Shown here: positions 33,665-41,147 of the stretch, in pieces
How the letters are laid out: each line of letters begins with the position of its first letter
Position numbering within the stretch: position 1 is the first letter of the stretch
From: Gemmatimonadaceae bacterium
Lineage (GTDB): Bacteria; Gemmatimonadota; Gemmatimonadetes; Gemmatimonadales; Gemmatimonadaceae
Assembly (NCBI GenBank): GCA_036496605.1
Contig: DASXKV010000004.1
Coordinates: forward strand, 124,001-188,000
Reading direction: 5' to 3'
Length of the DNA stretch: 64,000 bases
Notes under the pieces: generated by a model
The model's input: the letters and a program-made list of their open reading frames with translations, nothing else
The model's database searches: none
What the model was told of the DNA's origin: nothing
Made by a program: the position numbers and the translations under genes

Positions 33665-35818
33665 ATGAGCAAGTCATCATTCCTCGTTTGTGCGGCCGCC
33701 CTGGCCATCATGCCGAGCTCTCGCGCCAGAGCGCAACAGAATCTGATCGGGTACACGGCCGTCAGCGCCGCGCACGAACGTCAAGTCGAGGCCGATGCGA
33801 TCCAGCGACCAAATCCCGTGAGCGCCGCGGGACATTCTCGCGCACTATCGCGAGAAGTGCACGTCGCGGGAACCGCGGCGCAGGCGCGCACGCGCGACTA
33901 CGTCATCGCGCAGATGAAGTCCTGGGGCCTCGAAACGGAGGTCCGGAGCTACGACATCTGGATGCCACATGCCACGGACGTTCGCGTGTGGCGCGTCGCT
34001 CCCGATACGCTCCGGCTCAATCTGAGCGAGCCGGCCGTGCCTAACGATCCGGCGTCATCGTTGCCACAATACCCAACGGTGAACGGCTACAGCGGTCAAG
34101 GCGACGTCACGGGCGACGTCGTTTACGTGAACTACGGCCTGATCGAAGACTATGCGCAGCTCGATTCGCTCGGTGTCTCGGTGCGCGGCAAGATTGCGAT
34201 CGCTCGCTACGGCCGATCGTTCCGTGGCATCAAGGCGCGTGAGGCCGAACGTCATGGCGCCGTCGCTCTGATCATTTATAGCGATCCGCAAGATGACGGC
34301 TTTGTTCGGGGCGACGTGCATCCCGAAGGGCCGATGCGGCCGTCGGCTGGCGTGCAGCGAGGCAGCGTGTTGAATACCGACGGCGATCCCTCCACGCCCT
34401 CCTACCCGAGCACTCACAATGCAAAGCGGCTCCCTGAGTCCGACATGGAGATTCCGCACATTCCCGTTGTGCCGATGAGTTACGGCAACGCAGCCGAGCT
34501 GCTGCGGAGTGTGCGCGGACGGAACGTGCCGCAGACCTGGCAAGGCGGACTGCCGTTTCGCTATCACGTGGGTCCAGGCCCCGTAAGGGCGAGAGTCGTC
34601 GTGCACGACGACCGCGCGTCGCATGCGCTCAAGCCGATCTACGACACATTTGGAATCATCCGCGGCACTGAGTACCCCGACGAGCTCGTGATTGTCGGCG
34701 GCCATCGCGATGCGTGGGGCCCAGGCACTGCCGATAATGTCAGCGGCACCGTGAGCGTGCTCGAAGCGGCGCGCGCCGTCGCCGAACAGGTCAAACAGGG
34801 CATGCGGCCAAAGCGCACGATCGTGTTCGCGACGTGGGATGCCGAAGAATGGGGCCTGATTGGCTCCGTGGAGTATGTCGAAGACGATTCGCTCCGCCTA
34901 ACGAAGAACGCCGTCGCTTATTTCAATCAGGATGTTGCGGCACAGGGTCCGCGCTTCAACGGCGGCGGCTCACCCTCGCTACGCGCAACGATTCGCGCGA
35001 TCGCCAGCGTGGTGCCTGATCCAGATGGTCATGGAAGTGTGTATTCGGAATGGCGCCGCGCGACCGCTGTGGCCGATTCGCTCGAGCCGGCGATGGGTGA
35101 CCCAGGTGGCGGATCGGACTTCGCGCCATTCTATAACCACCTGGGGATTCCGATTGGCGAGTGGGGATTCGGTGGCGCTGGCGGCGTGTATCACTCGCAG
35201 TACGACGATTACAACTGGATGTCCAGGTTCGGCGATCCTGGATTTCTCTATCATGCCGCAGCCGCCCGCATCGCCGCGGGAATGGTGCTCCGCATCGCCA
35301 ACGCAGATGTGCTGCCTTACGACTACGCCGAGTTCGCGCGCACCATGCGCACCTATCTGACGTCGATCGATCGCGACTTCTCGGCGCGCCGATGGGATGC
35401 TGCGTCGCCAACCGGTCCCCTTCGCGCCTCCATCGACCGGATGGAAGAGATGGCGATTGGATTCGCGACATCGCGCGATGCCGCCCTGGCAGCGGGAACC
35501 GCTTCGCAGGGCCCGCTGGAAGAGACCAATCGCGCATTGATGCGCGTTGAGCGCGCACTGACGCGGCCGGAAGGACTGCGTGGCCGCTCCTGGTTCCGCA
35601 ACCTCATCTACGTGGCGGACGAGGATAACGGCTACGCCAATATGTCCCTTCCAACCATCAGGGAAGCGATCCGTCGAGGCGATTCGACGCTCGCCAAACG
35701 CGAGATCACGGATCTCGCCGCGCGCTTCGACGAGGCGACACGCGCGCTCGGCGACGCTCGGCGAGCAATCAGCGCTGCGTCATCCAACGGCCAACAAGAA
35801 CGCCGACCGCCACGCTGA
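33665..35818 (+). CDS. secreted M28 peptidase, glutamate-carboxypeptidase-II-like
   Basis: The 717-residue protein has a signal peptide (residues 1-24), a PA domain inserted near 110-340, the M28 zinc peptidase core and a C-terminal TFR-like dimerisation domain. Zinc ligands are seen in GGHRDAWGPGTADNVSG (His, Asp), WDAEEWGL (Glu pair), GGGSDFAPF (Asp) and YHSQYDDY (His). Plant and animal homologues trim C-terminal Glu/Asp; here nutrient peptide breakdown is likely. The last 50 bases overlap the convergent hydrogenase-like gene. Confidence 0.94.
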   Translation: MSKSSFLVCAAALAIMPSSRARAQQNLIGYTAVSAAHERQVEADAIQRPNPVSAAGHSRALSREVHVAGTAAQARTRDYVIAQMKSWGLETEVRSYDIWMPHATDVRVWRVAPDTLRLNLSEPAVPNDPASSLPQYPTVNGYSGQGDVTGDVVYVNYGLIEDYAQLDSLGVSVRGKIAIARYGRSFRGIKAREAERHGAVALIIYSDPQDDGFVRGDVHPEGPMRPSAGVQRGSVLNTDGDPSTPSYPSTHNAKRLPESDMEIPHIPVVPMSYGNAAELLRSVRGRNVPQTWQGGLPFRYHVGPGPVRARVVVHDDRASHALKPIYDTFGIIRGTEYPDELVIVGGHRDAWGPGTADNVSGTVSVLEAARAVAEQVKQGMRPKRTIVFATWDAEEWGLIGSVEYVEDDSLRLTKNAVAYFNQDVAAQGPRFNGGGSPSLRATIRAIASVVPDPDGHGSVYSEWRRATAVADSLEPAMGDPGGGSDFAPFYNHLGIPIGEWGFGGAGGVYHSQYDDYNWMSRFGDPGFLYHAAAARIAAGMVLRIANADVLPYDYAEFARTMRTYLTSIDRDFSARRWDAASPTGPLRASIDRMEEMAIGFATSRDAALAAGTASQGPLEETNRALMRVERALTRPEGLRGRSWFRNLIYVADEDNGYANMSLPTIREAIRRGDSTLAKREITDLAARFDEATRALGDARRAISAASSNGQQERRPPR

Positions 35819-37394
35819 CGAGGACGATCATCGAGATCAAGAGACCGCGTGTGAGAAGTTGCATAACGGGTCGCTCTCCTGCCTGGTGAGGAGGCGTCTC
35901 TTCGCGCGGTCGGGCATCGGAGAGTCGCGTCACCGGGAGTGCCACGGCACGTTCGGCGAAGCGCGAGCTGGTGTCTTGTCCCTCGTCCACGGCCGGCGCT
36001 GGCGCACGTCGCGGTGCGATCACCTCGACGACCTCAGCCCCAATCGCGACGACTGTGCGTGGCAGCACCTCCAGGGGCGTTCCTGCCACCGGTGCCAGCG
36101 TCTGTCCTCCGGTGCCGATGTCCGTATCGACGGCGGCCGTTGACTGAGGAGAGGATTGCTGCGGCTCGTCCGACCCTGCAGATGCCCGCGTGTTCGATGA
36201 CGCCTCCGTACTCGAGGCGATCGGAGTTTCGAGCTCGGCCGTGGGGGCTCGTCCGAGCCGCGTTGGCGCTCGGCGACGTGCGACATACGTGCGAGGCAGC
36301 TGGCGTCCATCGGAATCGCGCGCCGTCGGAAGGCCGGCACCGGTCAACCGCGCCACACCACGCGCCGGCGAATATCGGCGCGTGCCCGGCGACGCATGCG
36401 TCGGTTGTGCGCTCTCGCCCTCCTGTCGAGGGGTGCGCGACGGCAGCGGACTCTCGTCAACGAGTGACGGATCGTTAGGCGCGACGAGATCGATCGTCGG
36501 CGTGGTCGCGATGCTCGCCGATGTCGAGACCAGGTCGATGGCACTGCGCGGGCTCACCGGAAGCGAAAGCGACGTCTCCGTAACCAGGCTCTCGTCGACG
36601 ATTGCGTGCGCCGCGCGCGGCGGCTCGATCTCGGCGACGCGCACGCGCGCGTGCATTGGATCGACGGCCGTAGCGGCACCACTGCACACGCAGCCGAGTT
36701 TTGGCGCAACGTCGATGAGCGTCGGTTTGCCACTGAGAAGATGCTGCGCCAGTTCAACCGGCAGATCATCGCCGAATAACTCGACCAACGAGCGCGCGCC
36801 GACTGTCCCGTTGCTATCACCGGACCAGAGCATTTCGGCCGTTGGAAGGCCACCAGGCTGCGAACGATAGCGCCGCCGATCGGGAGGAATCACCGAGTCG
36901 AAGACATCTGGCTGTTGCTCGACGGCGATCTGATGATCGGCGAAAATTGCGAGCAACTCCTCCGGAGTGAGACGCGCATCGATGACTTCATCCGCCGCCG
37001 CCGGACACCGGCCAACGTACGTGATGCGTAGCTTGCGCGGTGCGTGCATCGTGCGGAGATAACGCGCAAGCGCGACGGGTGGCGCAACCAGCGAGACGAG
37101 AAACGGACGAAGATCAGCGCCGACGGCGAGCAGTCGATGCGCTACGTGCGGACAACTACACTGAATGGCGGGAAGCCGATCGTGCTGTCGTAATGCGCGC
37201 AGCGAGGCGACGGCGATGAGCTCGTCTCCCCAACTCGCTGGTACGACGGTCTGATATCCGGCAAGCATGCATGCGTGCGCAAGCTGAATCGGCGTCGCCG
37301 GAAGCGCGCCGAGAAGCGCATCCGCGCCGAGAATGACAATCGACGGAATGCGCACATTGTTCGATGTTCCGCTTTCGAGCGCGCCGAACGTCAT
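35769..37394 (-). CDS. tail-anchored protein with FeFe-hydrogenase-like large-subunit domain
   Basis: The protein is about 541 residues. The N-terminal 240 resemble the C-terminal domain of FeFe-hydrogenase/Nar1 proteins: AIQCSCPHVAHRLL at the P1 place, ITYVGRCPAAADEVID at the P2 place, LTPEELLAIFADHQI and a GGLPTAEML stretch. A Cys pair follows in LGCVCSGAA. A disordered Ser/Pro/Thr-rich region (about 250-510) leads to a C-terminal transmembrane helix (LLISMIVLVSVAVGVLVG). No ferredoxin domain is present and cysteines are fewer than in true hydrogenases, so H2 catalysis is unlikely. Start: the ATG at 37394 follows GGGAGGA; an upstream start at 37439 would add another CxC. It diverges from a CRP/FNR gene. 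Confidence 0.65.
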   Translation of the reverse strand: MTFGALESGTSNNVRIPSIVILGADALLGALPATPIQLAHACMLAGYQTVVPASWGDELIAVASLRALRQHDRLPAIQCSCPHVAHRLLAVGADLRPFLVSLVAPPVALARYLRTMHAPRKLRITYVGRCPAAADEVIDARLTPEELLAIFADHQIAVEQQPDVFDSVIPPDRRRYRSQPGGLPTAEMLWSGDSNGTVGARSLVELFGDDLPVELAQHLLSGKPTLIDVAPKLGCVCSGAATAVDPMHARVRVAEIEPPRAAHAIVDESLVTETSLSLPVSPRSAIDLVSTSASIATTPTIDLVAPNDPSLVDESPLPSRTPRQEGESAQPTHASPGTRRYSPARGVARLTGAGLPTARDSDGRQLPRTYVARRRAPTRLGRAPTAELETPIASSTEASSNTRASAGSDEPQQSSPQSTAAVDTDIGTGGQTLAPVAGTPLEVLPRTVVAIGAEVVEVIAPRRAPAPAVDEGQDTSSRFAERAVALPVTRLSDARPREETPPHQAGERPVMQLLTRGLLISMIVLVSVAVGVLVGRWMTQR

Positions 37395-37436
37395 GAGCTT
37401 CGAAAATCCTCCCGGCGCGCAAACGCAATCGACGAA

Positions 37437-37455
37437 CATCGACCATGTGTCGATG
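37437..37455. promoter_or_regulatory. inverted repeat between hydrogenase-like gene and CRP/FNR gene
   Basis: CATCGAC and GTCGATG are separated by five bases in the divergent promoter zone. A protein-binding operator, perhaps for the adjacent CRP/FNR-type regulator, is an inference from position and symmetry. Confidence 0.4.
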
Positions 37456-37500
37456 TCGGTGCGGCCTCATGCGCGGGGTGTGCGCACCCTGCAAAACAGG

Positions 37501-38304
37501 ATGGAAACGTCGGCCTGTCAAGAGCGGCCCAGACATTGCAACCTGCAATACCGTTGGCCGGAAGCGAGGGTGGTCGTGGGTGAGACGTTGACGGGGGGAC
37601 CTGCGAGGCTGTCGGCGCAGGAACGCGAGGCACTTGGTGCGTACGCCGCGCGGGCATCATGGCCGGCGGGTTTCGCAATCTATCAGCGCGGTACTGCAGC
37701 CGACGGTGTATTTGTCGTCACGCGTGGACGTGTCGTTCTGCGCAGCCGTGTGCGAGCCGGACGTGGGTTCGTTCCTTGGATTGCGACGCCTGGCGAGTCG
37801 TTTGGCTCGGAAGGCTTGGCACCGAATGCGAAATACGCGACAGATGCGCGAGCCGATGACGAAAGCGAGACGCTATTCCTCAGCGCGACACGCTTCCGGG
37901 CGTTCGTGCGGGAACAGCCGCAACATGCGCTCGTACTCGTCTCGCAGCTTATGGCGGAGCGTGCGGCACTGCTCGACAAGCTTCGCGAGCTCACGACGCT
38001 AAGCGTCGAGCAGCGCATGGTGTCAACGCTGCTTCGCATGGCGAATAACGCGACGTTCACGCGCGAAGACGGTAAGATCGTCCTGTGCACGGCGCGTTAT
38101 CGTCTGCTCTGCGAGCTGGTCGGAGCGACGCGCGAGTCAGTCTCACTCGTGTTGAGTCGGCTCACCGGCGAAGGTCTCGTCGAGCGCAAGGGAAGTACCT
38201 TGATCATCGCGCCGCCCACGCAGCTCGCCGAGCGCGTCGACACTTCCGATAGCGAATTGCTCATCGCCACCTTTGCCGATCGCGCGGAGCAGACTTTTCA
38301 ATAA
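37501..38304 (+). CDS. CRP/FNR-family transcriptional regulator
   Basis: The protein is about 267 residues. It has a cyclic-nucleotide-binding-like beta-barrel (AIYQRGTAADGVFVVTRGRVVL and ATPGESFGSEGL), a dimer helix and a C-terminal winged helix (CTARYRLLCELVGATRESVSLVLSRLTGEGLV). The cAMP-contacting Arg-Ser of CRP is not evident. If the ATG at 37501 is right, the N-terminus carries two Cys (SACQERPRHC), which could suggest redox sensing. A GTG at 37570 behind GCGAGG is an alternative that removes both. A rho-independent terminator follows. It is divergent from the hydrogenase-like gene and may control it. Confidence 0.9.
   Translation: METSACQERPRHCNLQYRWPEARVVVGETLTGGPARLSAQEREALGAYAARASWPAGFAIYQRGTAADGVFVVTRGRVVLRSRVRAGRGFVPWIATPGESFGSEGLAPNAKYATDARADDESETLFLSATRFRAFVREQPQHALVLVSQLMAERAALLDKLRELTTLSVEQRMVSTLLRMANNATFTREDGKIVLCTARYRLLCELVGATRESVSLVLSRLTGEGLVERKGSTLIIAPPTQLAERVDTSDSELLIATFADRAEQTFQ
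37535..37549. promoter_or_regulatory. ATTGCA-N3-TGCAAT palindrome at the start of the CRP/FNR gene
   Basis: A 15-bp perfect inverted repeat with a three-base centre lies between the two candidate start codons of the regulator. If the GTG at 37570 is the true start, it sits in the promoter and could be an autoregulatory site. If the ATG at 37501 is used, it is coding. Confidence 0.35.
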
Positions 38305-39429: not shown

Positions 39430-39828
39430 TTAACCGGTAACGCGCTCGACGACGCTGCTCCCCAGATCCTTGATCGCTTCCATTCCAGCGACGACCGCCG
39501 ATCCGGCTTCCTTCGCCACCTCTTGCGCAACGCGCGTGACTCGAGCAATTGGCGCCGGCACTCGCGAGCCGCTCTGGCGACTGCTACCCGACTTGGCGCT
39601 TGCTGCCTTACGAGAAGAGCTCTTCGCGGCGCTGCTCTTCGAGCTGGACCGACTCTTCGCCGACGAAGCCGGACGCGACGAAGACGCGCTTCGTGTGTTG
39701 CTCGAGGTCCCGGCGGCGGATGCGGACCGGCCGCGCGACTTCGTGCTCTTCGGTCTCTTCTTGCTGCCGCTTCGCTTTGCAGCGGTCCTGCCCGACTTCC
39801 CACGCGACTTCTTGGCCCTGGTCGCCAT
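39430..39828 (-). CDS. histone-H1-like Lys/Ser/Ala-rich protein
   Basis: The 132-residue basic protein starts MATRAKKSRGKSGRTAAKRS. About 90 residues of Ser/Lys/Arg/Ala low-complexity sequence with SKS, SRS and AKS repeats follow. A short amphipathic C-terminal helix region (VTRVAQEVAKEAGSAVVAGM) ends VVERVTG. The basic part resembles the C-terminal domain of eukaryotic H1 and bacterial nucleoid proteins of that type, so DNA compaction is the likely role. The structured tail is unusual. It has its own terminator. Confidence 0.72.
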   Translation of the reverse strand: MATRAKKSRGKSGRTAAKRSGSKKRPKSTKSRGRSASAAGTSSNTRSASSSRPASSAKSRSSSKSSAAKSSSRKAASAKSGSSRQSGSRVPAPIARVTRVAQEVAKEAGSAVVAGMEAIKDLGSSVVERVTG

Positions 39829-40028
39829 AGACGCTCTCCTCGGACTCGTTGACGGAAAAACCAACTCGACGATAGCAAGAATCAGGCACATCCGTAAGGC
39901 GTTCGGCGCGTGCTGATAGTCTCGCAATTCGCAAAGGCGGCCTGGAAGGATCGGCGGAGGCGCCTGGTCTCTCGTTGCCTCGCTCCGGTTTGGCCCGTAC
40001 AATCATCGCGGGCCCAATTGGAGTCGCT

Positions 40029-41147
40029 ATGACCTACGGTATCATCTTCGTTCTCGTCACCGCACTGTTCGCACTTTTCCTCTTCACCAGCTCGTTCAAG
40101 ATCGTCGGCCAGGCCGAGGTCATGGTAATCGAGCGGTTGGGTCGCTTTCACCGTCTCGCGCGCTCGGGCTTCAACATCCTCATCCCCTTCATCGAGCGTC
40201 CCAGGGCGATCGACGTTCGCTTCCTCGAGGCTGACGTCGGAGGCCAAAAGCGAATCGCGGCGCGTACGACAACGCGCATCGATCTACGGGAACAGGTACT
40301 CAACTTTCCCAGTCAGTCGGTCATCACCAAGGACAACGTCACGATCGACATCGACGCCGTGCTCTATTATCGGGTCGCTGATCCGCAAAAGGCGACATAC
40401 TCCATCCAGAATCTCCCCTATGCGCTCGAAACGCTCACACGGACGACGCTTCGGAACATCGTCGGCGATATCGAGCTCGATCAGACGCTGGCAAGTCGTG
40501 ACATGATCAACAAACGAATGCGCGACGTCATTGAGGAGGCCGCGGTCAGCTGGGGTGTCGACGTGACGCGCGTGGAGTTGCAGGCAATCGAGCCTCCTCG
40601 CGACATCCAGCAGTCGATGGAATTGCAGATGCGTGCCGAGCGAGAACGTCGCGCCGCGGTCACCAATGCCGAGGCGGGAAAGCGCGCTGCCATCCTCGAG
40701 TCCGAAGGTCAGCGAGAAGCGCAAGTCCGCAAGGCTGAGGGAGAGAAAGAAGCGGCGATCCTTCGCGCCCAGGGTATGGCAGAGGCTCGACTCGCGCTGG
40801 CCAATGCCGAAGCCGAAGCAATTCGGCGCGTTGCCGAATCACTTCCAGACGGCCAGGCCGCGATGTACCTGCTCGGTCTCAAGTACTTCGAGGCACTGCC
40901 GAAATTGGCGGAAGGAAAAGGGTCGACCGTTTTCCTACCTGCAGAAGCGACCGGCGTGATGGGTGCAGTCGGTGCACTTCGAGAAATGCTAAACAAGGCG
41001 TCGCCAAACGCCGAGATCTCGCCGGTTCGCAAGAACTCGGGACCGGTGTCGGGGTCGTCGGCGACATACCCATCGACACGGCCCACCGTTGCCGTACGCG
41101 CGAGCGACGCCCAGGTGCCGCTGCCTGAACATCCGACGGAGCGATAG
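40029..41147 (+). CDS. SPFH-domain (stomatin/paraslipin, QmcA-like) membrane protein
   Basis: The 372-residue protein has an N-terminal membrane helix (about 2-22) and an SPFH domain: ERLGRFHRLARSGFNILIPFIERP, FPSQSVITKDNVTIDIDAVLYYRV and LDQTLASRDMINKRM. A long coiled coil (AGKRAAILESEGQREAQVRKAEGEKEAA in segments) and a disordered tail follow. Such proteins form oligomeric membrane rings and often pair with NfeD proteases; the NfeD-like gene here is distant (4380). The ATG at 40029 begins the membrane helix. Confidence 0.93.
   Translation: MTYGIIFVLVTALFALFLFTSSFKIVGQAEVMVIERLGRFHRLARSGFNILIPFIERPRAIDVRFLEADVGGQKRIAARTTTRIDLREQVLNFPSQSVITKDNVTIDIDAVLYYRVADPQKATYSIQNLPYALETLTRTTLRNIVGDIELDQTLASRDMINKRMRDVIEEAAVSWGVDVTRVELQAIEPPRDIQQSMELQMRAERERRAAVTNAEAGKRAAILESEGQREAQVRKAEGEKEAAILRAQGMAEARLALANAEAEAIRRVAESLPDGQAAMYLLGLKYFEALPKLAEGKGSTVFLPAEATGVMGAVGALREMLNKASPNAEISPVRKNSGPVSGSSATYPSTRPTVAVRASDAQVPLPEHPTER

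Follow-up and report, generated by a model that had tools for sequence, protein, structure and literature searches.

A predicted tail-anchored protein with an [FeFe]-hydrogenase-like core beside a CRP/FNR-family regulator in Gemmatimonadaceae

The divergent gene pair and its intergenic DNA

In the window, a stretch of 64,000 nucleotides from a soil bacterium of the Gemmatimonadaceae, a gene for a 541-residue hydrogenase-fold protein with a predicted tail anchor (35769-37394, minus strand) and a gene for a CRP/FNR-family regulator (37576-38304, plus strand) are transcribed divergently, as an earlier note on this DNA had described. The open reading frame enclosing the former spans 35769-37439 (minus strand) and includes an in-frame upstream ATG at 37439 that was not conserved when homologues were compared; since both the homologues and an alignment of starts favoured the ATG at 37394, we took the latter as the start codon. 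Residues 48-182 of the protein matched the Pfam family PF02906 (Fe_hyd_lg_C) at 28.4 bits, above the cut-off of 22.1, and no other Pfam domain was found in it. The protein was the sole PF02906 match in its own genome. Elsewhere in the window, we noted by eye a Lys/Ser/Arg/Ala-rich, histone H1-like open reading frame (39430-40002, minus strand) beside an SPFH/stomatin-like gene (40029-41147).

The regulator starts with a GTG at 37576, six bases behind a GAGG, or possibly with the GTG at 37570, and its homologues begin near these same two positions. The possible N-terminal cysteines that the earlier note attributed to the regulator fall upstream of this start; because homologues place the start at 37570/37576, where there is no cysteine, an FNR-type cysteine cluster is not supported, and the regulator differs from FNR in having none of its cysteines. 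The cNMP_binding and HTH_Crp_2 domains both exceeded their Pfam cut-offs, and the protein matched solved CRP structures with an E-value of about 1e-12. It shares the effector and HTH domains of the CRP (cAMP receptor protein) family but has other residues in place of the cAMP-pocket residues E72, R82 and S83 in a pairwise alignment to solved CRP, in which a one-residue gap adjoins the position of R82.

We then considered how firmly the two genes are associated. Among 179 Gemmatimonadaceae genomes, 26 carried both genes, 38 the regulator alone and 16 the hydrogenase-fold protein alone, and the genes were adjacent and divergent in every genome that had both (26/26), so that homologues elsewhere do lie beside a CRP/FNR gene. 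However, the order M28 peptidase, hydrogenase-like gene, CRP gene, alpha/beta hydrolase persisted even when either gene was missing. Adjacency alone therefore shows no functional link, and block synteny could account for the pairing.

The intergenic DNA bears on the same question. A 25-bp element, TGTCAAGAGCGGCCCAGACATTGCA (37516-37540, plus strand), did not vary among 8 species and had no second copy in its own genome even when 3 mismatches were allowed. Its 15-bp core, GCAATGNNYGGGCCG (37525-37539, minus strand), precedes the regulator gene across much of the family: it was exact in 23 of 24 loci where the two genes share the intergenic region, the remaining one having two mismatches, and it recurred in weaker form upstream of regulators that lack the neighbouring protein (9/11 loci at two mismatches or fewer, compared to 3% of random stretches). 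We rejected the box as an element of the hydrogenase-like gene, because its core also precedes CRP orthologues where that gene is absent, and it appears to go with the regulator gene. A reading of the box as a CRP-type palindrome also failed, the box being non-palindromic, and genome-wide counts of the core at one mismatch (33, against 27 for a reversed control) gave no support for a regulon. On the minus strand the box runs into a TTGACA, and the arrangement TTGACA, 17 bp, TNNNTT (37493-37521, minus strand), present in about ten species as read from the alignment, is a putative promoter of the hydrogenase-like gene.

Two intergenic palindromes had been proposed in the earlier note, and they fared differently. 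The first, CATCGAC-N5-GTCGATG (37437-37455), is the only perfect copy in the genome, and its arms were kept while the spacer varied in the three species of the genus. The second (37535-37549) overlaps the much more conserved box, and its right arm was not conserved outside the genus. Control of the hydrogenase-like gene by the regulator is possible, and the invariable adjacency of the two genes where they co-occur, together with a box that is longer and nearly invariant where they share the intergenic region, would fit such control. Nevertheless, we regard it as an evenly balanced question whether the pairing is plain block synteny, with the regulator controlling itself or other genes instead; this is what the persistence of gene order when either gene is missing, the 38 genomes with the regulator alone and the 16 with the protein alone, and the box upstream of CRP genes that lack the protein would lead one to expect.

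Fold and relatives of the hydrogenase-like core

The earlier note assigned a hydrogenase-type domain to the N-terminal part of the protein, and both the Pfam match and structural modelling upheld it. An AlphaFold2 model of the 263-residue core (36561-37349, minus strand), built from an alignment of 35 sequences, had a mean pLDDT of 90.7 and a pTM of 0.90. The top Foldseek matches of this model were [FeFe]-hydrogenases (E 3e-9), and VIA-align superposed it on solved [FeFe]-hydrogenases with Z from 14 to 18.8 at an rmsd of about 3.5, the best of these (Z 18.8) spanning 252 of the 263 core residues. All of the 50 VIA-align matches listed were hydrogenases, including the hydrogenase subunit of a CO2 reductase. 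When solved structures were searched with the single protein sequence there was no match, and a clade A profile (see below) reached hydrogenases only at E 0.15. Because the confident AlphaFold2 model matches hydrogenases in both Foldseek and VIA-align, we consider that structural comparison of the predicted model settles the fold as a complete, but shortened, [FeFe]-hydrogenase H-domain.

Relatives of the protein were found in 90 of 298 genomes of the phylum. In a tree that was built quickly, has long branches and includes few outgroup sequences, they formed two sister clades, A and B, with a group C/D-like protein outside. Clade A, consisting of the core and a low-complexity linker, was confined to Gemmatimonadaceae in searches that returned only Gemmatimonadota records. 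Scanning genome contigs with the whole protein as query yielded no match, and scanning them with an alignment as query yielded 35 loci, again in Gemmatimonadota records only. Clade B, from other families of the phylum, combines a ferredoxin domain, the H-domain, a Cx2Cx4Cx16C motif and a GGDEF domain; it resembles the window protein over the whole core (28% identity between clade profiles, E 6e-38) and differs in having kept its redox modules and diguanylate cyclase.

The group C/D hydrogenases share clade B's plan of ferredoxin, H-domain and Cx2Cx4Cx16C motif (PMC8163306). Since clade B and the outside protein both have ferredoxin and FeS parts, these would, most simply, have been lost in clade A. 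The ferredoxin motif CxxCxxC was absent from all 48 relatives searched for it, in line with the earlier statement that the protein has no ferredoxin domain. The window protein is like the putative sensory hydrogenases of groups C/D (TmHydS, TamHydS, HfsB) in its H-domain fold, its cubane ligands (three of the four in register), the absence of the proton-transfer cysteine and an apparent sister lineage, clade B, built on their plan. It differs from them in lacking the N-terminal ferredoxin domain with two [4Fe-4S] clusters, the C-terminal FeS motif (Cx2Cx4Cx16C) and any PAS, kinase or GGDEF part, in having no HydG in its genome, and in its CxC in loop L3 and its membrane tail. Thus, it looks like a group C/D 'sensory' hydrogenase that was stripped of inputs and outputs and tethered.

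Several neighbourhoods of related genes were also recorded. At loci L087-L096, nearly every GGDEF-class gene is followed immediately by a gene for a protein of about 220-250 residues that has no Pfam match. The paralogues L079-L081 lie near genes that, judged from sequence, are ECF sigma-factor-like and anti-sigma-factor-like. Two further paralogues, L078 and L083, carry a membrane helix in the middle of the protein, end in a coiled-coil-like tail, and adjoin a small copper-protein-like gene.

The cysteine site, linker and membrane tail

Exactly four cysteines were invariant in clade A, in alignments of 26 and then 35 sequences with identities down to about 37%. They are the second cysteine of C-S-C-P in loop L1 (37152-37154, minus strand), corresponding to C300 of CpI, a ligand of the H-cluster cubane; the cysteine of VGxCP in loop L2 (37005-37007, minus strand), equivalent to C355; and both cysteines of the C-x-C in loop L3 (GCVCSG; 36684-36692, minus strand), which replaces the hydrogenase C-x(2-3)-C. 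Three of the four are in register with C300, C355 and C503 in CpI numbering. The C499 equivalent is lost in the alignment, its place being taken by a cysteine two residues past the C503 position, and all four sit at or beside the sites where hydrogenases bind the [4Fe-4S] part of the H-cluster. Loop L2 (VGRCPAAADE) lacks the catalytic lysine of MPCxxK, loop L3 (GCVCSGAA) lacks the glycine-rich end, and the proton-transfer cysteine is missing.

The maturase HydG was not found in the protein's own genome, which is 97% complete, either by profile (best match 23.8 bits against a cut-off of 312) or in a search at 1e-30. Of 298 phylum genomes, just 3 had HydG, namely the two with true hydrogenases and one (G104) without any of the proteins described here. 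Because the catalytic residues and HydG are missing, an active [FeFe]-hydrogenase is very unlikely.

The four cysteines likely bind a single iron-sulphur cluster, most likely [4Fe-4S]. At the same four positions in clade B, all four cysteines were present in 25 of 40 proteins, and the other 15 had lost three or four of them together, as one shared cluster site would predict. The proteins with lost ligands mostly keep their ferredoxin and GGDEF parts. On the tree, such loss was seen in two groups among these ferredoxin, H-domain, FeS and GGDEF proteins (loci L087-L096 and L022-L061). A point against the cluster reading is the different register (CxC) of the L3 ligands.

Downstream of the core lies a Pro/Ala/Arg/Ser/Thr-rich low-complexity linker without cysteines (35847-36560, minus strand; 230 residues, 80% of them disorder-promoting), followed by a C-terminal transmembrane helix (35790-35846, minus strand; hydropathy 2.65, AlphaFold2 pLDDT about 90). 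As this is the single predicted hydrophobic helix, 6 residues from the C-terminus, and there is no N-terminal signal, the protein is by prediction a tail-anchored membrane protein. Of the long disordered stretch and one C-terminal helix claimed in the earlier note, the helix and the disorder-promoting composition were recovered, whereas the full-length AlphaFold2 model, built from only 7 sequences and poor apart from the confident C-terminal helix, is no proof of a disordered linker.

Amid otherwise variable linker sequence, we observed a conserved motif, LPR[AT]YVARRR (36270-36299, minus strand), which may be a docking site. Its core was present in 25 of 28 membrane-anchored relatives compared to 3 of 17 without a helix (Fisher p 2e-6, kinship ignored). 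Among 45 full-length clade A proteins, 18 ended in a C-terminal helix, 10 had a helix and a longer tail of roughly 145 to 215 residues beyond it, and 17 had no helix; the tether is therefore not essential to the family. Among the papers searched, we found no description of an architecture combining a hydrogenase-fold core, a linker and a membrane helix.

Possible function of the protein

A sensor or adaptor appears the most likely role for the protein, and an iron-sulphur carrier or metal-free scaffold less so. Specifically, the best explanation, in which we place about as much belief as doubt, is that the protein descends from the group C/D 'sensory' [FeFe]-hydrogenases, is non-catalytic and tethered to the membrane, and serves as a redox sensor or adaptor. 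The four cysteines would hold one iron-sulphur cluster, most likely [4Fe-4S], beside an empty cofactor cavity; the redox state of this cluster, or its damage by O2 or NO, would alter the domain; and a partner docking on the LPR[AT]YVARRR linker motif would receive the signal at the membrane's cytoplasmic face. The sensing function is proposed by analogy only, and we found neither an output domain in the protein nor a conserved partner gene.

Eukaryotic Nar1 is a known case of an [FeFe]-hydrogenase fold that carries out no H2 chemistry. Nar1 has the fold without the 2Fe cofactor, carries a [4Fe-4S] cluster at the same site and probably holds a labile [2Fe-2S] cluster in the cavity (PMC12621388). 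The site is reduced in the same way in the window protein, which resembles Nar1/IOP1/NARF in a hydrogenase fold that probably lacks the 2Fe cofactor and catalytic activity, with one cluster expected at the H-cluster cubane position, and a bacterial Nar1 counterpart, a membrane-docked iron-sulphur trafficking or insertion factor that hands its cluster on rather than sensing, was accordingly weighed. We consider it improbable: the window protein lacks the N-terminal [4Fe-4S] cysteine site of Nar1 and its C-terminal Trp (it ends in RWMTQR), its linker and membrane tether have no counterpart in Nar1, and none of the neighbouring genes examined was recognised as an Fe-S assembly gene. Equally poor odds attach to a degenerate, metal-free H-domain retained at the membrane to serve as a scaffold for protein binding; two tree groups of related GGDEF proteins do keep the domain after losing all or most ligands, but four cysteines invariant in 35 clade A sequences would be unexpected without a ligand. 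That the protein is an active, membrane-anchored [FeFe]-hydrogenase is scarcely credible, for although the fold and most cubane ligands are present, the L2 lysine, the glycine-rich L3, a ferredoxin domain and a genomic HydG are all absent, and the protein is the genome's only PF02906 match.

The redox sensor or adaptor reading can be taken one step further, and here we are distinctly more tentative: the protein could belong to a novel type of redox sensor or adaptor in bacterial membranes, in which an [FeFe]-hydrogenase domain free of H2 chemistry serves as a stand-alone iron-sulphur switch with a flexible tether, a docking motif and its own CRP-type regulator. Together with its relatives, it forms part of a natural series that runs from the full sensory plan through a ligand-less plan to a stripped and tethered one. 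This series would allow the role of the cubane site to be tested apart from catalysis, in a clade whose sister is coupled to c-di-GMP.
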